Assembly (NCBI GenBank): GCA_905235535.1 | Contig: CAJOLS010000002.1 | Location: forward strand, 1-42,147 | Length of the DNA: 42,147 bases | Reading direction: 5' to 3' | DNA from: an uncultured Bacteroidales bacterium | GTDB taxonomy: Bacteria > Bacteroidota > Bacteroidia > Bacteroidales > UBA932 | Part shown: piece after piece, positions 19,422-33,567 of the stretch | Layout: each line of letters opens with the position of its first letter | Numbering within the stretch: position 1 is the stretch's first letter | Program-made: the position numbers and the translations under genes | The notes under the pieces: generated by a model | Told to the model about the DNA's origin: nothing | Databases searched by the model: none | The model's input: the letters and a program-made list of their open reading frames with translations, nothing else

Positions 19422-21584
19422 ATGAACGAAAACAATAACAGCAACTTTTTGGAACGCTTTGCGATTAACCTCAACGAGCGGGCGTCGCAGGGCAAGTTGG
19501 ATCCGGTGATAGGCCGGGACGACGAAATCCGGCGCGTGCTGCAAATCCTGAGCAGGCGCACCAAGAACAACCCCATCCTGGTGGGCGAGCCCGGCGTGGG
19601 CAAGACCGCCATCTCCGAAGGCATTGCCCAGAACATCGTGAACGGGCAGGTGCCGGAAAACCTGAAATCCAAGAAAGTCTATTCCCTGGACATGGGCGCC
19701 CTTATCGCGGGCGCAAAATATCAAGGTGAGTTTGAGGAGCGTCTCAAGGGTGTCGTGAAAGAAGTGGTGGACAGCGCGGGGGAAATCATCCTTTTCATCG
19801 ACGAAATCCATACCCTGGTGGGCGCAGGCCGTTCTTCCGGCGCCATGGATGCCTCCAACATCCTGAAGCCGGCGCTGGCCCGCGGAGAGCTGCGCACCAT
19901 CGGCAGCACCACCCTGGACGAATACCAGAAGTACTTTGAGGCCGACAAGGCCCTGGAGCGCCGTTTCCAGATGGTGATGGTGGACGAGCCGTCGCCCGCA
20001 GAGAGCATTGCCATCCTGAGGGGCCTGAAGGAGCGCTACGAGAACCACCACAAGGTGCGCATCGAGGACGACGCCCTCATTGCCGCCGTGAACCTCTCGC
20101 ACAGGTATATCACCTCCCGCTTCCTGCCGGACAAGGCCATCGACCTGGTGGACGAGGCGGCCTCCAAGCTGCGTCTGGAGATGAATTCCGTGCCGGAACC
20201 CATCGACAACCTCAATTCCGCCATCCGGCAGAAAGAGATTGAGCGGGAGGCCATCAAGCGCGAAGGCGTATCGGCCAAACTGGAAAAACTGGAGGCCGAA
20301 CTGAAAGACCTGCAGGCGCAGCGGGACGTGCTCATGAAGCGCTGGAACGAGGAAAAGGACACCCTGGGAGGCCTGCAGACGGCCCGTCAGGAGCTGGAAG
20401 ATCTGAGTCTTCAGGCCAGGACGGCCGAGCGCAACGGAGATTATGCCCGCGTGGCAGAAATCCGTTACGGCAAGATGGCCGCCACCCAGAAGAGGATTGA
20501 CGAGCTCACCGCCAAGGCGGAATCCATCAAGAACCCCCTTGTGACAGAGGCGGTTACCCCGGAAGACATTGCCGAAGTGGTGGCCAAGTGGACCGGCATT
20601 CCCGTGAAGCGCATGATGGAAAGCGAGAAGGAAAAGCTCCTCCGCATGGAGGCGGAGCTGCACCGGCGCGTAGTGGGCCAGGACGAGGCCATCCGGGCCG
20701 TGGCCGATGCCGTACGCCGGAGCCGCGCAGGCCTTTCCAACGAAAAACGTCCCATCGGCTCCTTCCTCTTCATGGGCACCACCGGCGTGGGCAAGACGGA
20801 ACTGGCCAAGGCGCTGGCCGCCTTCCTGTTCAACGACGAGAACATGATGACCCGTATCGACATGAGCGAATACCAGGAGCGGCACACCGTTTCCCGCCTC
20901 GTGGGTGCGCCTCCGGGATACGTGGGGTACGACGAGGGCGGCCAGCTCACCGAGGCCGTGCGCCGCAAACCCTATTCCGTGGTGCTGCTGGACGAGATTG
21001 AAAAAGCCCACCCGGACGTGTTCAACGTGCTTTTGCAGGTTTTGGACGACGGCCGCCTCACGGACAACAAGGGCCGCACCGTGGACTTCAAGAACACCCT
21101 CCTCATCATGACGTCCAACGCCGGGGCCGACATTATCCAGAGCTATATGGAGAAGCTGCCGGAAGTGAACGGAGTGGACATGCAGGCCATCGCCACCCGC
21201 CGCAGCCTGCTGGACGAGTGCCGGGGGAAGGTGTTGGACGTGCTCAAGATGACCGTCCGTCCGGAATTCCTGAACCGTATAGACGAGATCATCATGTTTG
21301 ACCCGCTCACCAAGGCCGATATCCGCGATATCCTGCACATCCAGGAAGAGGAACTGCAGCACAAGCTGGCCGAAAGCGGCGTTTCCCTGGCCTTCACCCC
21401 GGCCTTCGAGGACCACATGGTGGAGCACGGCTATGACCCCGCCTACGGCGCCCGTCCCGTGAAACGCCTGATGCAGAGGGAACTGGTGAACCTTCTGGCC
21501 AAGAACATCCTGGAAGGCGCCATCCACAAGGACTCCACCGTCACGGTGGACGTAAGCGGCGGGGAAGTGGTTGTCCGCAATTAG
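19422..21584 (+). CDS. clpB: ClpB-type AAA+ disaggregase lacking the N-terminal domain
   Basis: Two AAA modules ([24 protein letters not shown]) with ClpB-like coiled-coil M domain between; begins directly at '[34 protein letters not shown]'. Confidence 0.88.
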
Positions 21585-21606
21585 AGTCTTTGCAAAAATA
21601 TCCGTT

Positions 21607-22857
21607 ATGAAAAAAATTTTTTCGCTTTGCCTTTTCATCCTCCTCTGCACGCTGGGATACGCCCAGACAGATTCCAAGGCGGCCCTGATGGCCGATATCG
21701 AGCGTGCCGGCGGCGTGCATTACCTCTATCCCACGAATCAGCCGGCTCCCACATCGGCCCCCAAGGGCTATAAAGCCTTCTATGTGAGTCATATAGGCCG
21801 ACATGGGGCACGTTATGCCCTGGGCGGCAGCGTGTATGAGGAGCAGCTGGCCGTCTGGACCAGGGGGCATGAGAAAGGGTGGCTCACCCCCTCAGGCGAA
21901 GCTTTTTACCAGGCCTATAAGGATTTTTATCCCGCCATCGCCCTCCGGGAAGGAAACCTTACCCGCAAGGGCCAGGGCCAGCACCGCTACATCGCCGGCC
22001 AGATTTATAGGAACTATCCCTCCGTCTTCAAAGGAAAAACCCATGCGGAGGCCGTTTCCACCGTTTCCCATCGCGTAATCGTAAGCATGTTCTCCTTTTT
22101 GAGCGAGCTGGACAACCTGGACAGGGACTTCACCTTCGGGGCCGATTACGGGCAGCCCTACCAGAGCTACCTGCTGCCGGATGTCATCGATTCCGGGGCC
22201 GAGCGCCACGGAGATGCCGAAGTCAAGTTCAACCGGTTCCGGGATCAGGTGCTGGACCTGGATGCCATGCTGGGCAAATGGTTCACCCGGCCGGATTCCC
22301 TGGTAAGCAATAAGTATAAGTTCTGTTTCGACCTCCATACCGTGGTTTCCACACTGGACAACACGGACGCTCCCGTGGTTCCCGAAGCCCTGTACGGCGT
22401 ATTTACTCCTGAGGAGCGCTACCAGCTGTGGAGAGTGAACAACTTCCGCGACTACCAGCTCCTGGGCCGCTCCCCGGATACGGAAAACCTGCGGATGAAG
22501 GCCATGCAGGCCCTCCTGAAGGATTTTGTGGAAAAGGCCGATGAGGACATGCGCACCGGAGGGGTGCAGCTTCGCCTGCGCTTTGGCCACGACTCCACCC
22601 TCATGCCCCTGCTGTCCCTGATGGACGTAAACGGAATGGGCGCCGTCATCGAAGACCCCGGCGAAGTGGAGAAGTACTGGCAGAACTACAACATCCCTAT
22701 GGCCTGCAACTTGCAGCTGGTCTTTTTCAAAAGCAAAAAGAACCCGGACATCCTGGTCCAGGTTCTTCTGAATGGCGTTGAGGCTTCCCTTCCTATCCCC
22801 CAGGTTTGCCCCGGGTTCTATAGCTGGAAGGATTTCAAAGCCTATTATATAAGGTAA
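21607..22857 (+). CDS. Exported histidine phosphatase (branch 2, MINPP/phytase-like)
   Basis: Signal peptide MKKIFSLCLFILLCTLGYAQ; 'YVSHIGRHGARYALGG' RHGxR motif; distal 'RFGHDSTLMPLLSLM' HD motif. Confidence 0.82.
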   Translation: MKKIFSLCLFILLCTLGYAQTDSKAALMADIERAGGVHYLYPTNQPAPTSAPKGYKAFYVSHIGRHGARYALGGSVYEEQLAVWTRGHEKGWLTPSGEAFYQAYKDFYPAIALREGNLTRKGQGQHRYIAGQIYRNYPSVFKGKTHAEAVSTVSHRVIVSMFSFLSELDNLDRDFTFGADYGQPYQSYLLPDVIDSGAERHGDAEVKFNRFRDQVLDLDAMLGKWFTRPDSLVSNKYKFCFDLHTVVSTLDNTDAPVVPEALYGVFTPEERYQLWRVNNFRDYQLLGRSPDTENLRMKAMQALLKDFVEKADEDMRTGGVQLRLRFGHDSTLMPLLSLMDVNGMGAVIEDPGEVEKYWQNYNIPMACNLQLVFFKSKKNPDILVQVLLNGVEASLPIPQVCPGFYSWKDFKAYYIR

Positions 22858-24383: not shown

Positions 24384-26168
24384 ATGAGAAAATCGCTTTT
24401 GAAAGCCCTTGTGGCCTCTGCCGCCCTGCTGGGTTCCCTGGATGCCCGCCCCTGCACCAACGTCATCATTACCCGGGGTGCCAGCACGGACGGTTCCGTC
24501 CTGGTTTCCTATGCGGCCGATTCCCATACCCTTTACGGGGAGCTTTACTACAAGCCGGCCAAAGACTGGAAGAAAGGCAGCCAAATCCAGATTTTCGACT
24601 GGGATACCCAGAGGCCCCTGGCCCGGATTCCCCAGATGGCCCATACCTACCAGACCGTGGGCAACATGAACGAGTTCCAGCTCATCATAACGGAAACCAC
24701 CTGGGGCGGCCGGCCGGAGCTGGAAGACAAGACCGGCGGAATAGATTACGGTTCCCTTATCTATATTACCCTGCAGCGCGCCAAGACGGCCCGCGAGGCC
24801 ATTGACGTCATCGTGAAGCTGGCCAATGAATACGGCTACGCCTCCGAGGGGGAGACCTTCTCCATTGCCGACAAGAACGAAGCCTGGATCATGGAGCTCA
24901 TCGGCAAGGGCATGGACCTGAGGAACGGAAAGAACGTGGAGAAAGGCATTGTCTGGGTGGCCCGCCGCGTGCCGGACGGGGCCATCTGTGCCCATGCCAA
25001 CCAGGCCCGCATAGGGAAATTCCCCCTCTACGACCGTGAGAACTGCCTCTATGCCCCGGACGTGATTTCCTTCGCCCGCCGCAAGGGCTATTTCTCCGGC
25101 GAGGACCGGGATTTCAGTTTCAAGAAAGCTTATGCTCCCCTGGATTTCGGCACTGTCCGCGGCTGTGACGCCCGTGTCTGGAGCGCCTTCAACATCCTTA
25201 CGGACGGCTGGTTCTCCTTCTACGACGAGAACGGGGACGCCGTTACCCGCGACGCTTATTCATATCTGGACTACGTGATGGGCCGGGACTTGGAAGGGGA
25301 CATGCCCCTTTTCGTATTTCCCCGCAAAAAGGCCGGCGTGAAAGATGTGGCCGATGTCATGAGGGACCACTACGAGGGCACGCCCATGGATATGACCCAG
25401 GACATCGGAGCCGGCGGCAACGCCCTCCCTTACCGCTGGCGTCCCATGGAATTCACCGTAGAGGGAAAGACCTATGTGAACGAGCGTGCCATCGCCACCC
25501 AGCAAACCGGTTTCTGGATGGTGGGCCAGGCCCGCAACTACGTCCCCGACGTAGTGGGCGGAATCCTCTGGTTTGGAACCGACGATGCCGCCACCTCCTA
25601 TCTTACCCCCATCTACACCAGCGTTTCCAAAGTGCCCGAGTGCTTCCGGGAAGGGAACGGAGACCGCCTGCACTATTCTCCCACTTCCTCCTTCTGGCTT
25701 AACAACCGCATTTCCAACGCCTGCTACAAGATGTACAACCAGATGGCCCCTTATGTCCGCTCCCGGGTGGACGCCTTCGAGATGGACCAGATGGAGCGCC
25801 GTACCCATTCCGTGGACAGCATGGCCGTGGTCATGTACAACCAGGTGGTGGTAAAACTGCAGAAGAAACTGAGCTCCAAGCACGACGTCATGATTTCTTC
25901 CAAGCCCTTCTCCAAGATTGTGAACTATGTCACGGATTACACTCTGGAAACCGCCGGCAAACAGTTCTCTTCCTGGCAGGAGCTGGAGGTGGAGCTGCTG
26001 GTGAAGTTCATGGACGGCAATGTGGTGCCCCAGGACAGGGAAGGCCGCTTTGTACATTCCCGTTACTCGGAAGGAATGCCCGAAAAGGTGTCCCAGCCCG
26101 GTTATACGGAGCTTTGGAAGGAGACCGTGGCCCGGGAACATGGGGATGTCATAGCCGTTCCGCAGTAG
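24384..26168 (+). CDS. Peptidase C69 family (dipeptidase, Ntn hydrolase)
   Basis: 'ARPCTNVIITRGASTDGSVLVSYAADSHTLYGELYY', 'EFQLIITETTWGGRPEL...GGIDYGSLIYITLQRAKTAREAI'. Confidence 0.9.
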   Translation: MRKSLLKALVASAALLGSLDARPCTNVIITRGASTDGSVLVSYAADSHTLYGELYYKPAKDWKKGSQIQIFDWDTQRPLARIPQMAHTYQTVGNMNEFQLIITETTWGGRPELEDKTGGIDYGSLIYITLQRAKTAREAIDVIVKLANEYGYASEGETFSIADKNEAWIMELIGKGMDLRNGKNVEKGIVWVARRVPDGAICAHANQARIGKFPLYDRENCLYAPDVISFARRKGYFSGEDRDFSFKKAYAPLDFGTVRGCDARVWSAFNILTDGWFSFYDENGDAVTRDAYSYLDYVMGRDLEGDMPLFVFPRKKAGVKDVADVMRDHYEGTPMDMTQDIGAGGNALPYRWRPMEFTVEGKTYVNERAIATQQTGFWMVGQARNYVPDVVGGILWFGTDDAATSYLTPIYTSVSKVPECFREGNGDRLHYSPTSSFWLNNRISNACYKMYNQMAPYVRSRVDAFEMDQMERRTHSVDSMAVVMYNQVVVKLQKKLSSKHDVMISSKPFSKIVNYVTDYTLETAGKQFSSWQELEVELLVKFMDGNVVPQDREGRFVHSRYSEGMPEKVSQPGYTELWKETVAREHGDVIAVPQ

Positions 26169-26206
26169 AAAAAACTCTACAAAAACCTAACATGGCTCTG
26201 TCGAAC

Positions 26207-26237
26207 TTTGTTTTCATGTAAACAATGGCTACCTTTG
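26207..26237 (+). promoter_or_regulatory. -33/-7 promoter of the phosphate locus
   Basis: TTTG (26207-26210), N19, TACCTTTG (26230-26237); ATG of DUF47 gene at 26261. Confidence 0.7.
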
Positions 26238-26260: not shown

Positions 26261-26923
26261 ATGAAACTATTTGGAATTTTCTCTACAAGCCGCGCAAAAT
26301 TGTTTGCAGAATCTGTGGACAAACTCCTCAACACCATAGATACTGCATTGATACTCTTTAAAGAAGGGGTGCGCAGCTACCTCTACAATGATGCGGAAAG
26401 TTTTTCCCAAAGCCTCTCTGCCATGGCCACGGCCGAGACAGAGGCCGGCGTGCTGCGCAGAGACATAGAAAACATGCTTTATTCCCGGGGGTCCCTCATC
26501 CGCTACAGGGGAGATATCATGCGTCTGCTGGAAAGATACAACCATATCCTCTCCATCCTGAGCAACGACCTCATCCAGTTTGAGATTGAATCCCCGTCCG
26601 TTCCTGCAGAGCTCAAGAAGGAATTCGTCAAGCTGGCCGAACTGGCTACCCTGGCGGTTGAAACCACCATCCCCGGCACCAAGGCATATTTTTCCAGGCC
26701 GGACCAGGTGAGCGAATCCATCCACCGAGTTTATTTATATGACAAACAGGCTGTCAAACTGTCCCAGTCCATCAAACGCACCGTCTTCCACGACATGGAG
26801 CCCTTGAAACTGAGCGAAAAGTTCCACCTGCGGTATTTTGCCCTTCACATCGAAGACTTGTCCACCGCAGCCGTCAAAGTGGCGGAACAGCTCTCTGTAA
26901 TGTCCATCAAGCGCAGCCTGTAA
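26261..26923 (+). CDS. DUF47 / PhoU-like phosphate transport regulator
   Basis: MKLFGIFSTSRAKLFAESVDKLLNTIDTALILFKEGVRSYL...; helical PhoU-like. ORF-track start 26225 lies upstream of the -7 box, so 26261 is preferred. Confidence 0.82.
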   Translation: MKLFGIFSTSRAKLFAESVDKLLNTIDTALILFKEGVRSYLYNDAESFSQSLSAMATAETEAGVLRRDIENMLYSRGSLIRYRGDIMRLLERYNHILSILSNDLIQFEIESPSVPAELKKEFVKLAELATLAVETTIPGTKAYFSRPDQVSESIHRVYLYDKQAVKLSQSIKRTVFHDMEPLKLSEKFHLRYFALHIEDLSTAAVKVAEQLSVMSIKRSL

Positions 26924-26927
26924 ACGA

Positions 26928-28580
26928 ATGTTCCTCCCGCTGGTTACACTGCTCATTACCCTGTGCGCTTTGGGTATCCCCCTCCTGCTGAGGGAGTTTC
27001 CGGTTGTACTGGGAAGCATCCACGCCTCCGGGGCTTCGGAACGCTGGTCTGTCAAGATTTTGCTGCCGCTTCTGGTCGCAGCGGGCCTCATGGCTCCCTT
27101 TTTCCTGGAAATTCAGGAATGGAACGCCCTTTGGGAGGCCGTTCCCTCCTATGATTTGCCTTCTGCCATAGCCATTGCCGCCGGAACGGCCGCGGCCGTA
27201 ATGATTTCTGCGGTCATCCACCGGAGGACGGCCGTGCCCTATGCTTTCCTGGGGGCCGTCTTTGGAAGCCAGCTCATGGTGAACGGCCGCATAGACCAGC
27301 CTCTGCTGCTGGGGCTGGCGGGCACCTGGGTGGCAGCCCCCCTGCTGTGCGGCTTCCTCAGCGCCCTTTTGTCGGCCCTCCTGCACAGGTATGCAAGCCG
27401 TAAGGGACGTCACCTGGCCATTGTGGACCAGCGGCTCCTGGCGGGTTCCGTTCTGGCCTCCGTGCTCCTGGTGGCCGCCTGGTCCTGGAACCAGGCACCT
27501 ATGCTGGCCATTTTCCCCCGCCAAATCCTGGGAGCCGGCTACTTCCCGGCCCTGCTCATGCTGGGCGTACTCTTTTTCCTCTTTGTCCTGAATGTCCGCC
27601 AGGTGCGCACCCACGCGATGAATCTTTCGGAAAACCAGCTGGACTTCGGCCCCGGTTCCATCCTGGCCATCCTTTTATCCATGGCCTGCTGCTTCGGCCT
27701 TTTCTCCTGGAACGGGATAGAAGTGTTGAGGCTGCAACCGGCACCTTTGAGTGCCAGCGCCCTTTTCGTGGCCGCTTTGACGGGCGTGAGCCTGAGCCGC
27801 CGGGAGGCTGTCATTTCGGATTCCGAAATTCTCCACAGCCTGGCTGCCTGCGCCGCCGCTCCCATCCTGGGTCTTCTGGCCACCTATTGCATAAGCATGA
27901 TCCTGGGGGTGAGTTCCGACAGGGCCGGCGCCACGGACTGGAATGCCCGGCTGCTGCCCACCTTCATCCTGATGGGTGTGGTGGCAGTAACCGCCGCCCT
28001 CTATCTTTACGTTCGCTCCGGCCGCAATGAAAACCGCCGCAGACAGATGCTCCAGGCCCGGGAAGACCAGGTCTATTCCACGCAGAAGTCCCTGTCGGCC
28101 CTGGAGGTGCGCGTGGAAACCAACGAAAAGGATCTTCTTAACAAACTGGATATCAAGAGGAAAGAACTGGTAGATTTTGCCGTGGGCGTAAGCGAGCAGA
28201 AAGCCTTCATGGAGGAGGTGTACACGCAGCTGGCCCAGGCCAAGGAACTGCCTTCCGGGGCGGCCAAAGACCAGGCCCTGGAAGAGATTCTCTCGAAACT
28301 GCGGGAACGGATGTATTTCACCCGGGAAATGAACGACTTCTATGCCCGCACGGAAGTCCTGCACCGGGATTTCAACATGCGCCTGAAGGAAGCCTTCCCG
28401 GACCTCACGGAAGGGGAGCGGAAGCTGGCCAACCTGCTGCGGCAGGGGTTCTCTTCCAAATACATCGCCTCCCTCATGAACATTACTCCCAAAAGTGTGG
28501 AAATCAGCAGGTCCAGGCTGCGTACCAAGCTGGGCTTGAAACGCTCCGACAACCTGGTCCAATATATTAAATCCATATAA
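26928..28580 (+). CDS. PiT-like multi-TM domain fused to coiled coil and LuxR-type HTH
   Basis: N-terminal ~360 aa TM-rich with 'IHRRTAVPYAFLGAVFGSQLM...GTWVAAPLLCGFLSALLSALLHRY', resembling PiT; C-terminal 'LTEGERKLANLLRQGFSSKYIASLMNITPKSVEISRSRLRTKLGL' HTH. Confidence 0.72.
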   Translation: MFLPLVTLLITLCALGIPLLLREFPVVLGSIHASGASERWSVKILLPLLVAAGLMAPFFLEIQEWNALWEAVPSYDLPSAIAIAAGTAAAVMISAVIHRRTAVPYAFLGAVFGSQLMVNGRIDQPLLLGLAGTWVAAPLLCGFLSALLSALLHRYASRKGRHLAIVDQRLLAGSVLASVLLVAAWSWNQAPMLAIFPRQILGAGYFPALLMLGVLFFLFVLNVRQVRTHAMNLSENQLDFGPGSILAILLSMACCFGLFSWNGIEVLRLQPAPLSASALFVAALTGVSLSRREAVISDSEILHSLAACAAAPILGLLATYCISMILGVSSDRAGATDWNARLLPTFILMGVVAVTAALYLYVRSGRNENRRRQMLQAREDQVYSTQKSLSALEVRVETNEKDLLNKLDIKRKELVDFAVGVSEQKAFMEEVYTQLAQAKELPSGAAKDQALEEILSKLRERMYFTREMNDFYARTEVLHRDFNMRLKEAFPDLTEGERKLANLLRQGFSSKYIASLMNITPKSVEISRSRLRTKLGLKRSDNLVQYIKSI

Positions 28581-28598
28581 CCTTTATTAATACTAATT

Positions 28599-29993
28599 AT
28601 GCGTAAACTAACCTCTGTGATTGCAATCGTGCTGCTGACAGCGTCTGCGGCATTTGCGCAGAAAGCCGTCAAGTACAACCAGTACGGCGTGGCCGTAGAA
28701 TCCGAGGTCCTGGATGCAGAATCCCAGGACGGATTCCTGGTCCTCGGATCCCCTGACAGCAACTACAACATCTGGTTCGACAACCGTGTCCAGGTGGACA
28801 TGGGCGGTTTCTTCGGAGCCCCCTCTTTTGCCGACCCCATCGGCAACGGCATCAGCATCCGCCGCGCCCGCTTCGCCATCAAGGCCCAGCTGGACGAGAA
28901 ATGGTACGGAGAGTTCGATATGGACCTGGCCAACGGCCTGGTAGAACTCAAGGATGCCATCATCCGGTACACCGGAGTGCGCAATCTGGAATTGCAGGCC
29001 GGTAATTTCAAGGAGAATTTCTCCATCCAGCGCAACTCCTCTTCCCGTTACCTCATGTTCATGGAGCGTCCCATGGTTTGCTCCGCCCTGGCTCCTTCCC
29101 GCCACCTGGGTCTCAATGCCAAGTACAGCAATCCTTTTATCTGGGCTTCCGTGGGCTTCTTCGCCCAGGAAGGTGCCGGTGCCGAGGAAAACACCAACGT
29201 GCAGGATAACAACAAGGACTTCGGCCGTGGCATCAGCTTCAAGGACAAGACCGGCTTTGCCGTTACGTCCAAGGTGGTTTTCCGCCCCCTGTTCAAGCTG
29301 GAGAACGCAGGCCTCCACATTGGCCTTGCCCACTCTTACCGCACCACCCTGGCCAGCGTAGCCACCGGCGAATGGGGCACCTATCGTGCCAGCTCCCGTA
29401 ACTCCACCAGCATCAACCGCAAGAAGTACGTGGACACCAACAACCTCAAGGACTACGAATTCAACCACCTGTGGACGGTGGAAGTGGCCGGTCACTGGAA
29501 CGGCCTGCGCTATGAGGCCGCCTATATCGGCGACAATGTCCATTACAAAAACACCAAGCTGGTGAACAACTTCGGCGGCTGGTATGTCCAGGCCGGTTAT
29601 CTCCTGTTCGGCGGCAAACAGCGCTACGATTCCGTGGGCGCCAAGTACACCCGTGCAGAGCGCGGCCGGAAGTGGGGAGACCTGGAGCTCTGCGCCCGTT
29701 ATGAGTATCTCAACCTCAACGACACCCGCGACAATGCCAAGGAGAAGGTTTACGGCGGCAGCGCCGAGGCCTACACCGTGGGCCTGAACTGGTGGATTAC
29801 CAACAACGTCCGTTTCCAGCTCAACTACCAGTACAACAACAACGACCGTTATGCCAACGGTAAGGACAAGCTGAATGTGGGCCTGGACGCCGTCGGACAG
29901 CCTACCAAGGACTACACCAAGGTGGTTACTCCCGCTGGCAAGGCCGGTGTGGACTACCACATGGTGGCCCTCCGTTTTGAAGTGGACTTCTAG
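28599..29993 (+). CDS. Phosphate-selective porin O/P family
   Basis: 'FDNRVQVDMGGFFGAP...SIRRARFAIKAQLDEKWYGEFDMDLANGLVELKDAIIRYTGVRNLELQAGNFKENFSIQRNSSSRYLMFMERP' typical of OprP/OprO. Confidence 0.88.
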   Translation: MRKLTSVIAIVLLTASAAFAQKAVKYNQYGVAVESEVLDAESQDGFLVLGSPDSNYNIWFDNRVQVDMGGFFGAPSFADPIGNGISIRRARFAIKAQLDEKWYGEFDMDLANGLVELKDAIIRYTGVRNLELQAGNFKENFSIQRNSSSRYLMFMERPMVCSALAPSRHLGLNAKYSNPFIWASVGFFAQEGAGAEENTNVQDNNKDFGRGISFKDKTGFAVTSKVVFRPLFKLENAGLHIGLAHSYRTTLASVATGEWGTYRASSRNSTSINRKKYVDTNNLKDYEFNHLWTVEVAGHWNGLRYEAAYIGDNVHYKNTKLVNNFGGWYVQAGYLLFGGKQRYDSVGAKYTRAERGRKWGDLELCARYEYLNLNDTRDNAKEKVYGGSAEAYTVGLNWWITNNVRFQLNYQYNNNDRYANGKDKLNVGLDAVGQPTKDYTKVVTPAGKAGVDYHMVALRFEVDF

Positions 29994-30017: not shown

Positions 30018-30848
30018 ATGAAAAAGATATTTATCATTGCAGCTGCCGCCGTCCTGGCACTAACCGGATGCGTCAAAGATGAAATGTTCAAAGGCCCCTC
30101 CAAGATTGAGAAGGTGGTCTTTACCCCCGAGGCTCCAACCTCCAACGATGCTGTTGCCGTTGTCGCTACGGTGAGCGGGCTCCAGAAAGTCACTACCGCC
30201 ACCCTTTATTATGGAAATGCCGCCGTTCCCATGACCCCGGACAACAGCGGGAACCAGTTTATGGCCACCATTCCCGCTATGCCGGACGGAACCGAAGTTT
30301 CCTTCACGGTAAAGGTGGTCAACGAAGCCAGTTTCGAGACCACTTCCGATAATTACACCTACAAGGTGGGAGACCCCGCCACCGACTGGACCAAACTCCA
30401 GTTCAATGAGGTGTACGGCGCCGGAGCCGATGAAGAGAAGTTCTTCGAGCTGCACAACGGCAGCGACTTCCCCATCAAGCTCACCGGTGTCACCATCAAC
30501 AAAGATGAAGAACTTACCTGGACCGGCGAGGACGGTGAGGTGGTTCCCGCCCACGGGGTATTTGCCATCATCGGCGGCAAGGGCACCACGTCCAGAGGCT
30601 TCAAGAGCGGCTTCTCTTCCAAGAAGAGTGTCCTGCTCGAGCTCTTCGACCCCAAGGGCAACAAGATTGACCAGTTCCAGCGCGGCGACAAGGGGGACGA
30701 CGGCAAGTGGGGCGCATCCCTGACGGACAACAAGGGCTCCTGGAGCCGTATCCCCGACGGAAGCGGCAAATGGATGATTACGGCAACCTTCACTCCGAAC
30801 GCATTGAACAGCAGGGAAGGCACCGAAGATCCCGATGTAAAACAGTAA
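30018..30848 (+). CDS. Lipoprotein with lamin-tail-like domain
   Basis: Lipobox LALTGCVKD; 'LQFNEVYGAGADEEKFFELHNGSDFPIKLTGVTI...GVFAIIGG...GNKIDQFQRG...GSWSRIPDGSGKW...TPNALN' LTD pattern. Confidence 0.75.
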   Translation: MKKIFIIAAAAVLALTGCVKDEMFKGPSKIEKVVFTPEAPTSNDAVAVVATVSGLQKVTTATLYYGNAAVPMTPDNSGNQFMATIPAMPDGTEVSFTVKVVNEASFETTSDNYTYKVGDPATDWTKLQFNEVYGAGADEEKFFELHNGSDFPIKLTGVTINKDEELTWTGEDGEVVPAHGVFAIIGGKGTTSRGFKSGFSSKKSVLLELFDPKGNKIDQFQRGDKGDDGKWGASLTDNKGSWSRIPDGSGKWMITATFTPNALNSREGTEDPDVKQ

Positions 30849-30869: not shown

Positions 30870-31508
30870 ATGGCAGAACTTAAGATTGGCGAGATTTCCA
30901 AACCTCGCTTCGAATTCCGCAGTTTTGGACAGTGCTTCTGCGAGGCACACAAACGGATGGCACGCCTAAGCGCACCCGTCCCCGAAAAGGTGTGGGAACG
31001 CACCAGCGATGAGATTTACATCATCAGCGCCAAGAACGACATCAACAACACCAAGATCCGCGACGGCAAGATGGACATCAAGACCTATGTCCAGACCGTA
31101 GATGGTTTTGAGCAGTGGAACCCCCTGATGAAGGGCGAATTCCCCATCTCCAGGGAAGTGCTGGAGAAGGAAGTGTTCCCCGCCTTCATGGTGGAGATGC
31201 CCAAGCTTACCAAGGACACCTATACCTTTGACGAGTTCATCGCCATGGTGAAGGCCTGCCCGGACCTGGCCGCCGTGCGCGTTCACAAGCAGCGCTTCGG
31301 CTACATGGTGAACAACACTATCTGCGAGGTGGGCAACGTCCTTATCAACGGCGCCAAGGTGGTGACCATCAACTCCGAGAGCACGGAGATCGAAGACATC
31401 AGGAAGACGGTGGCCGACTGCCACCTGGAGGGTGTGGAGAACATCAATTACCTCCAGGCCATTAAGCGCGTTATCGGCATGAGTGACAAACCTTTAGCTA
31501 ACGAATAG
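30870..31508 (+). CDS. Putative divergent CYTH/triphosphate-tunnel-like protein
   Basis: 'KPRFEFRSFG' (ExR), 'DEIYIISAKNDINNTKIRDGKMDIKTYVQ', 'VRVHKQRFGYMVNNTICEVGNVLINGAKVVTINSES...INYLQAIKRVIG' resemble CYTH strand order. Confidence 0.5.
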   Translation: MAELKIGEISKPRFEFRSFGQCFCEAHKRMARLSAPVPEKVWERTSDEIYIISAKNDINNTKIRDGKMDIKTYVQTVDGFEQWNPLMKGEFPISREVLEKEVFPAFMVEMPKLTKDTYTFDEFIAMVKACPDLAAVRVHKQRFGYMVNNTICEVGNVLINGAKVVTINSESTEIEDIRKTVADCHLEGVENINYLQAIKRVIGMSDKPLANE

Positions 31509-31511
31509 ACC

Positions 31512-31988
31512 ATGGCACAGGAAATTGAAAAGAAATTCTTGGTAAAGGGCGACTTCAAGGCCGATGCCTTCAAGGCCACCCGCATCACGCAGGGTTATCT
31601 CTCCTCCGTCCCGGAACGCACGGTGCGCGTCCGCGTGAAGGGAGAGAAGGGCTTTATCACCATCAAGGGAATAGGGAACGCTTCCGGCGCCGCCCGCTTT
31701 GAATGGGAGAAGGAAATCCCCGTGGAAGAGGTGAAGTCCCTCCTGGAACTGGCCGAACCCGGTGTCATTGACAAGACCCGCTACCTGGTGAAAAACACTG
31801 ACGGTGTACACACCTGGGAAGTGGACGAGTTCTACGGCGACAACGAAGGCCTCACCGTGGCCGAGGTTGAACTGTCCGATGAGAACGAGCCCTTCGACAA
31901 GCCCGCCTGGCTGGGAGAGGAAGTGACCGGAGACCCCAAATACTTCAACTCCATGCTGATGAAGAACCCTTATAAAAACTGGAAATAA
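31512..31988 (+). CDS. CYTH-domain (triphosphate tunnel metalloenzyme) protein
   Basis: 'MAQEIEKKFLVKGDF' ExExK, 'RTVRVRVKGEKGFITIKG', 'WEVDEFYGDNEGLTVAEVELSDEN'. Confidence 0.93.
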   Translation: MAQEIEKKFLVKGDFKADAFKATRITQGYLSSVPERTVRVRVKGEKGFITIKGIGNASGAARFEWEKEIPVEEVKSLLELAEPGVIDKTRYLVKNTDGVHTWEVDEFYGDNEGLTVAEVELSDENEPFDKPAWLGEEVTGDPKYFNSMLMKNPYKNWK

Positions 31989-31989
31989 A

Positions 31990-33567
31990 ATGATGGACCC
32001 GCTTGACATGAACAACTACAAGGTTGAGAAGCTGCCCAAGATGCAGAAATCGGCCTTCGAAATCTGGATGGCACGCCTGGGTGCGCCCCTGGCTTTCATT
32101 GCATTTGTCTGGATAACATGGTTCTGTCACATCGGGTTCATAGACCATCTGGACACCGGACTGTTGGCCGCTTCGGCTCAGAAGCGGCTGACAGCCCTGG
32201 GTCTGGAGGGTTTTATCCGCGCCAACTATGCCATGCTGGGCATCTTTGTGGCCAGCCTCATCCTGTGGATAACGGAGGCCATCCCCAATTACCTGACCTC
32301 CCTCATCCTCATCCTGGGTATAATCCTGTTTGATGTAACCACCCAGAAGGAGGCCCTGGCCCAGCTGGGCCACCCGGTGATGTGGCTGAACATCCTCAGC
32401 TTCGTGCTGGCCTCCATGCTGGTGAAAACCCAATTTGCCCGGCGTCTGGCCCTGGCCTTTGTCATCAAGTTCGGCCGCAGCGCCAAAGGCGTGCTGTGGA
32501 GCTTTCTCCTGATTAACCTGGTGCTGAGCGCCTTCATATCGGCCACTACCGTGAAGGCTACCATCATGCTGCCCATTTTCATGGTCATCTGCGCCATCTA
32601 CGGTGCCTCCGACGGCCACCGCAACAACTTCGGCCGCAACCTTGTCATCCAGAACCTCTTCCAGGTGAATATCGGCGCCAATGCCTTCTATACCGGCAGC
32701 GGAGCGCACCTGCTGGCCATTTCCCTCATCGCCGGCTTCGTGGGAAGCTGCGACTTCGGATACAAAGAGTGGCTGGTGGCGGTGGGCCCCATGAGCGTGA
32801 TAATCCTGGTGGTGGGCCTGCTGCTGGGCATGTATGTGTTCTTCCCCATGAAAAAGGAAGAGCAGAAGCCCCAGCTGGAGGGCGGCCTGGACCGGCTGAA
32901 ACAGGAGCTGGCAGCCATGGGAAAGATGTCGGTCGAAGAATGGAAGGCCGTGGGCATCTTTGTTCTGGTGCTGTTCCTGTGGGTGACCAAAGGCACCTTC
33001 CACAACATTGACGAAACCATCGTGGCCCTTATCGGCGCCATCCTGGCCCTGCTGCCGGGGATTGGCGTGGTCAAGTGGAATGATGTGGACATCCCCTGGC
33101 ACCTGATGCTGTTCAGCGCGGGCGCCTATACCCTGGGCAGCGGGCTCAACGCCACGGACCTGCCCAACACCATGGTGAACGCGGTGTTCAATTCCATGGG
33201 CATTACGGCCGACACCCCCTTCTGGGTGCTTTATGTGATTCTTACCTTCCTGATGATGTATTCCGGCCTGGTGTTCCAGAGCAAGACCATCCGGACCATG
33301 GTCTTCGTTCCCATCGCCCTGGGCGTGGAGAAGCGCTTCGGCTTCCCGTCCATGAGCCTGGCCCTGCCGGTTGCCATGCTCATCGAGCACTGCTATGTGC
33401 TCCCCTTCAACAGCAAACCCGCGGCCCTTCTGTACACCACCAACCAGTACAGCATGACGGACGCATTCAAATATGGCATCACCATGATGACCTTCTCCTG
33501 GCTGCTCATCCTTCTCTTCGGGCAGACGGTCTTGAAGTGGCTTCATATTACTCCGGGCTTGTTTTAG
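31990..33567 (+). CDS. DASS/SLC13-family anion:Na+ symporter
   Basis: Multi-TM; 'IFVASLILWITEAIPNYLTSLILILGIILFDV', 'LVLSAFISATTVKATIMLPIFMVI', 'DIPWHLMLFSAGAYTLGSGL'. Confidence 0.87.
   Translation: MMDPLDMNNYKVEKLPKMQKSAFEIWMARLGAPLAFIAFVWITWFCHIGFIDHLDTGLLAASAQKRLTALGLEGFIRANYAMLGIFVASLILWITEAIPNYLTSLILILGIILFDVTTQKEALAQLGHPVMWLNILSFVLASMLVKTQFARRLALAFVIKFGRSAKGVLWSFLLINLVLSAFISATTVKATIMLPIFMVICAIYGASDGHRNNFGRNLVIQNLFQVNIGANAFYTGSGAHLLAISLIAGFVGSCDFGYKEWLVAVGPMSVIILVVGLLLGMYVFFPMKKEEQKPQLEGGLDRLKQELAAMGKMSVEEWKAVGIFVLVLFLWVTKGTFHNIDETIVALIGAILALLPGIGVVKWNDVDIPWHLMLFSAGAYTLGSGLNATDLPNTMVNAVFNSMGITADTPFWVLYVILTFLMMYSGLVFQSKTIRTMVFVPIALGVEKRFGFPSMSLALPVAMLIEHCYVLPFNSKPAALLYTTNQYSMTDAFKYGITMMTFSWLLILLFGQTVLKWLHITPGLF

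Follow-up and report, generated by a model that had tools for sequence, protein, structure and literature searches.

The change from transporter to sensor is usually inferred from its end points, as for UhpC, Snf3 and CbrA. Of the systems closest to the one described here, the histidine-kinase transceptor CbrA still transports histidine (PMC7096432, PMC13022988), and DadR, HcdR and CadR of the Coriobacteriia are LuxR regulators with 10-12 TM helices (PMC9734109). PiT phosphate transporters are defined by a GANDVANA-type signature in both halves of the protein, and transport by human PiT2 depends critically on the conserved Asp within each signature (PMC3126765).

The locus considered here lies in a window of 42,147 nucleotides (the whole stretch of DNA analysed) from an uncultured Bacteroidales bacterium. 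A first-pass annotation, made from the letters alone, had read one of its genes as a transporter-derived sensor regulating transcription directly from the membrane, and our analysis supports this. As that annotation described, the ORF at 26928-28580 is open as a single reading frame, the DUF47 gene ending 4 nt before it (at 26923) and a porin gene starting 18 nt past it (at 28599). From sequence and structural models we assign a probability of roughly 0.6 to the reading that this PiT-LuxR fusion is a membrane-integral one-component transcription regulator, built from a PiT transporter, which would sample Pi or a proxy and control its own operon. The features of the locus are:

26175..26181, + strand: CTCTACA box, candidate operator; motif precedes DUF47 in all close relatives (22/22)
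about 26186-26192, + strand: candidate partial second box, CCTAACA, 11 bp further
26230..26237, + strand: TACCTTTG, Bacteroidetes-type -7 promoter element, at a position shared among loci
26261..26923, + strand: DUF47/PhoU-like gene, 220 aa (PhoU_div by Pfam; start moved from 26225)
26928..28580, + strand: PiT-LuxR fusion ORF, 550 aa
26928..28022, + strand: residues 1-365, comprising the PiT-fold membrane domain (most PiT signature residues gone) and the final TM helix
28014..28394, + strand: long cytoplasmic helical/coiled-coil linker, about residues 363-489 (model helices 338-439 and 445-489)
28404..28565, + strand: LuxR/GerE HTH, residues 493-546 (Pfam; TM-score 0.70-0.76 to the DosR C-terminal domain)
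28599..29993, + strand: OprP-like porin (Pfam Porin_O_P, 7e-30)
30018..30848, + strand: lamin-tail-domain lipoprotein, member of the operon (Pfam and neighbourhood comparison)
30870..31508, + strand: 212-aa protein, conserved neighbour with no Pfam or NCBIfam match
31512..31988, + strand: CYTH-domain protein, conserved neighbour (neighbourhood comparison)
31990..33567, + strand: DASS-family anion symporter, neighbour in the window's clade and in stand-alone-PiT operons

For the DUF47 gene a start at 26261 is more likely than one at 26225, because relatives are 220 aa long and the -7 element falls inside the longer ORF. Across the order, copies of the 212-aa protein in this operon setting share 71-97% identity, and its residues 114-184 give an unexplained phmmer match (6.7e-9) to a chain of PDB 5iww labelled PLS9-PPR. 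Slightly upstream of the operon, at 21571-22857 and 24384-26168, lie genes for a branch 2 histidine phosphatase (possibly phytase-like) and a C69 peptidase.

Architecture and distribution of the fusion

The C-terminal domain is a LuxR/GerE HTH by Pfam (residues 493-546, 3.7e-8, 33.3 bits against a cut-off of 23.5), and the membrane part matches PHO4 in two stretches (3.3e-5) at 23.5 bits, below the gathering score of 33.7, which some relatives exceed (L092 with 36.4; the G295 and G296 proteins when summed). An AlphaFold2 model of residues 1-365, whose alignment held degenerate forms only and zero motif-intact PiT sequences, reached a pLDDT of 88.8 and a pTM of 0.87. Its sole significant Foldseek match in the PDB was 6l85 (TM 0.51-0.64, E 4e-5; next match E 0.02), the Thermotoga sodium-phosphate transporter TmPiT. 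The PiT resemblance that had been noticed by eye is thereby confirmed, and the fold is that of PiT rather than the 7TM/MASE sensor fold raised as its alternative.

The full-length model continues the membrane domain into an unbroken helix (338-439), a second helix (445-489) and a DosR-like HTH, so that the succession of TM helices, coiled coil and LuxR-like HTH within one protein is upheld by Pfam and the model alike. Since a positively charged stretch follows the last TM helix, the positive-inside rule would place the output domain in the cytoplasm. Domain search and model revealed no kinase or receiver domain, input and DNA-binding output sharing one polypeptide, and the combination of an SLC5 domain with a histidine kinase was not found by Pfam or Foldseek.

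A genome scan identified 31 fusion loci in rumen/gut Bacteroidales, of which 30 are full or nearly full (40-62% identity) and one (L031) is a C-terminal fragment only; the fusion is also present in a single-contig, 99%-complete genome. This recurrence excludes an assembly error, a possibility that the first-pass annotation had tied to absence of the fusion from close relatives. An order-wide profile search matched 181/295 genomes, mostly through the C-terminal coiled-coil-LuxR (CC-LuxR) module alone, which is common to TPR and Y_Y_Y regulators, and a plasmid search likewise matched the CC-LuxR part only. Within the window's family the fusion occurs in 12/120 genomes and is missing from most of the genomes of the same genus that were examined (G008 among them), hence its spread is patchy; the family members fetched are motif-intact (L089, L091) or motif-poor (L090 and L092-L095, besides L032). 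No report of a PiT-LuxR fusion was found in the open-access literature searched.

Signature loss, selection and ancestry

The window's clade does not carry a GANDVANA-type signature in both halves. Across 29 motif-poor proteins, neither the first nor the second Asn of the GAND motif is retained (0/29 each), and the first VST motif keeps its Thr in 0/29 and its Ser in 9/29; one Asn of the second motif and an acidic residue at the GAND Asp position are present in 29/29. Loss of the ND motifs, which had been put forward for checking across homologues, is thus clade-wide. As to where the degenerate signatures lie, the earlier placement of the second, AWSWNQAPMLAIF, was right; the first, GSIHASGASERWS, was set about 8 residues off, the residues aligned to GANDAAN being 19-26 (LLREFPVV), immediately preceding it.

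Mean column conservation falls from 0.77 in intact to 0.49 in degenerate proteins over the PiT domain and rises from 0.56 to 0.68 over the coiled coil and from 0.71 to 0.85 over the HTH. The dN/dS of the PiT part (0.05-0.25; C part 0.03-0.14) argues that it is not decaying, and this low ratio, taken together with the inversion of conservation, indicates that the membrane part is under selection, though a different one. Patchy spread within the family and loss of the PiT motifs are what an assembly error or a decaying pseudogene might leave behind, but dN/dS is well below 1 and the ORF is complete in about 30 independent genomes as well as in the single-contig one, which refutes such an origin.

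Transporter descent, likewise proposed from the sequence, is shown by full-length homologues (~577-584 aa) in 12 genomes of eight other families, which retain the PiT motifs GANDAAN, PVSTSQ, GANNIAN and VPVSST, one motif being eroded in some of them (L039). Where scanned, these motif-intact fusions score above the PHO4 cut-off (E down to 3e-64), several also above that for GerE, and the degenerate and motif-intact fusions match as profiles over their whole length (hhalign probability 100, E 3e-70). The closest PiTs outside the order, in a phylum sample, lack the HTH and are part of this operon, arranged as CYTH-DASS-DUF47-PiT-porin. In a PiT-domain tree, stand-alone PiTs, motif-intact fusions and degenerate fusions separate with two changes as the minimum, long branches leading to the degenerate forms; the C-terminal tree, in which the L036 row is wrongly labelled degenerate, gives no count of independent motif losses. 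Since both motif-intact fusions and HTH-less PiT operons exist, the series runs from a stand-alone PiT through a PiT-LuxR fusion to the motif-poor fusion of the window.

Several related loci deserve mention in their own right. One fusion (L039:5051-6799, - strand) has a partly eroded first signature, GSKDTVN, with its other motifs intact, and is a possible intermediate; a motif-intact-type gene in G075 (L033:4990-6807, - strand) is broken by a stop codon, either real or a sequencing error. Stand-alone PiTs of this operon from other classes (L080-L088) are extended at the C terminus by a conserved segment of ~140 aa, which is no HTH but possibly another output or regulatory domain.

Judged by their sequences, the motif-intact fusions are very likely transporters. 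Since one motif Asn and the acidic residue are invariant in the window's clade, the membrane part there may still bind a ligand or ion, or even transport. With the PiT fold kept under purifying selection and motif-intact relatives of this kind, one could see in the window's clade a divergent symporter for Pi or another anion with a regulatory tail, that is, a bifunctional transceptor; we think this unlikely, as the other signatures have lost their Asn and Ser/Thr clade-wide and the membrane part evolves fast, leaving the HTH as the most conserved part. Every degenerate-fusion genome tested, moreover, encodes another Pi transporter: NptA (PF02690) in 12/14, and a canonical stand-alone PiT in the two without it (those of L004 and L025), which is circumstantial evidence that uptake is covered without the fusion. 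Compensation by a DASS symporter newly joining the operon was rejected, since the operon of stand-alone-PiT relatives already includes DASS.

Phased boxes upstream of the operon

Forward CTCTACA occurs upstream of DUF47 in 48 copies over 22/22 close loci (4 on the opposite strand), the expectation being 0.5 from shuffles and 0.9 from the remaining sequence of these loci. The copies are spaced 11, 22, 43, 54-55 and 65-66 bp apart, which sets them on one helix face (phasing 10.8-11 bp), and in many loci one copy lies ~34 bp ahead of the -7 element, assigned through TAnnTTTG, the Bacteroidetes -7 consensus. In all 13 more distant fusion loci CTACA is present and phased alike (10.8 bp). Seven further family members have the box in five cases and none in L093, nor in L091, for which only 194 nt upstream were available, bringing the total to 40/42 fusion loci, related ones among them not being independent. 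A C[TC]CTACA box was found in 0/11 stand-alone-PiT operons. Over 19 genomes the strict tandem occurs mainly at the fusion operon, with chance-level matches elsewhere, the one checked lying inside a coding gene; given these matches, and nptA upstreams without CTCTACA, a regulon beyond the operon was rejected.

The regulators available in these genomes bear on what reads the boxes. Among 16 fusion genomes, six have no OmpR/PhoB-type HTH at all and five have such a domain only as a tail of NptA. In the window's genome (82% complete) the sole PF00486 domain is fused to NptA and no free PhoB was found, and PstC above cut-off is absent from all 14 degenerate-fusion genomes (the window's and 13 more). 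Because most of the genomes are incomplete MAGs, absence of PhoB or Pst is uncertain in any one of them, a weakness that touches single-genome absences more than the pattern over 14-16 genomes.

Since 11/16 fusion genomes lack an OmpR/PhoB-type regulator, the boxes are probably the operator of the fusion's own HTH. They could instead be bound by PhoB or another CC-LuxR protein, leaving the fusion to regulate something else: the same CC-LuxR module is present in TPR and Y_Y_Y regulators, and 11-bp direct repeats resemble the classical Pho box in layout. We regard this as quite improbable, given that the boxes persist in the six genomes without any OmpR/PhoB-type HTH (for which a Pho-box reading was rejected) and track the fusion, not the operon, none being seen upstream of nptA. 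LuxR-type domains often bind inverted repeats, unlike the direct repeats formed by these boxes. The direct transcriptional control that we favour gains from the phased boxes ahead of the operon a specific prediction.

A second fusion type, joining an NptA-type Na/Pi cotransporter to PhoU and a C-terminal PhoB-type winged helix (Trans_reg_C 9.7e-14), is encoded at G000:C68:22446-24401 (- strand; L060), in L061-L064 and in G713, G731, G749, G750, G765 and G789, and contains the only OmpR-type HTH found in the window's genome; close NptA homologues in G732, G800 and G801 lack the winged-helix domain.

Proposed mechanism and comparison with known systems

We propose that the PiT domain of the window's clade no longer transports, and would still sample external or transported Pi, or else its DUF47 partner or Na+. 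The helical linker would relay the conformation of this domain to the HTH; the latter, in dimeric or oligomeric form, may bind the helically phased CTCTACA boxes and control, most likely activate, its own operon (DUF47, sensor, OprP porin and lipoprotein). Pi uptake would fall to NptA or a different transporter, with no need for PhoB. Activation is suggested by the placement of the boxes upstream of the promoter, the sole basis for this sign, and Pi as ligand by ancestry and operon content.

With the Pi-site residues largely gone and DUF47 strictly linked to the fusion within the operon in our neighbourhood comparison, a membrane regulator might take a different input: an anion other than Pi, Na+ or proton-motive state, or the DUF47 protein by itself. 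This is less probable, at well below even odds, in that, among the loci compared, DUF47 and an OprP-type porin stay in the operon whatever the state of the PiT domain, and porin O genes of B. fragilis respond to Pi limitation (PMC3547664). Taking a phosphate-related regulator as the preferred reading, we tentatively suggest, with somewhat less than even confidence, that a gut Bacteroidales lineage replaced PhoBR/Pst with the PiT-LuxR protein and, in some genomes including the window's, the NptA-PhoU-winged-helix fusion, PiT-LuxR having been first a working transporter-transcription factor and later a transport-dead sensor.

One conserved operon holds as living homologues the stages of such a change: a transporter without output, one with a DNA-binding output, and a motif-poor putative sensor that has kept this output. 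With so compact a candidate operator, binding, direction and ligand can be tested directly, and the fusion suggests a way for bacteria apparently without PhoB to sense phosphate.

Set against described systems, the fusion has the fold, internal repeat and DUF47 neighbour of PiT/PHO4 proteins (PF01384; TmPiT 6l85), but neither of the two GANDVANA-type signatures and no VST motifs; it lies below the Pfam cut-off and has a CC-LuxR output. By architecture alone it resembles the Coriobacteriia LuxRs with 10-12 TM helices, which are also one-component proteins with a polytopic membrane domain and a C-terminal LuxR HTH (PMC9734109); it differs from them in phylum, in its PiT-derived input and phosphate-type operon, and in its long Bacteroidetes-type coiled-coil linker. 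CbrA and the SLC5-STAC transceptors similarly join a transporter domain to a signalling output (PMC7096432, PMC13022988), which in their case is a histidine kinase and in the fusion is predicted to be DNA binding. The Bacteroidetes TPR-TM-CC-LuxR and Y_Y_Y-TM-CC-LuxR regulators (L099, L097) have the same coiled-coil and LuxR output, with TPR or propeller/Y_Y_Y inputs in place of a transporter-derived one. PhoRB of B. fragilis (PMC3547664) presumably shares with the fusion a phosphate-response role and a porin target, whereas it is a two-component, Pst-linked system with an OmpR-type HTH that was not found in most fusion genomes examined. Each element of the fusion has a precedent (12-TM LuxRs, PMC9734109; CbrA, PMC7096432), and its novelty would lie in being a membrane one-component regulator with a transporter-derived input.
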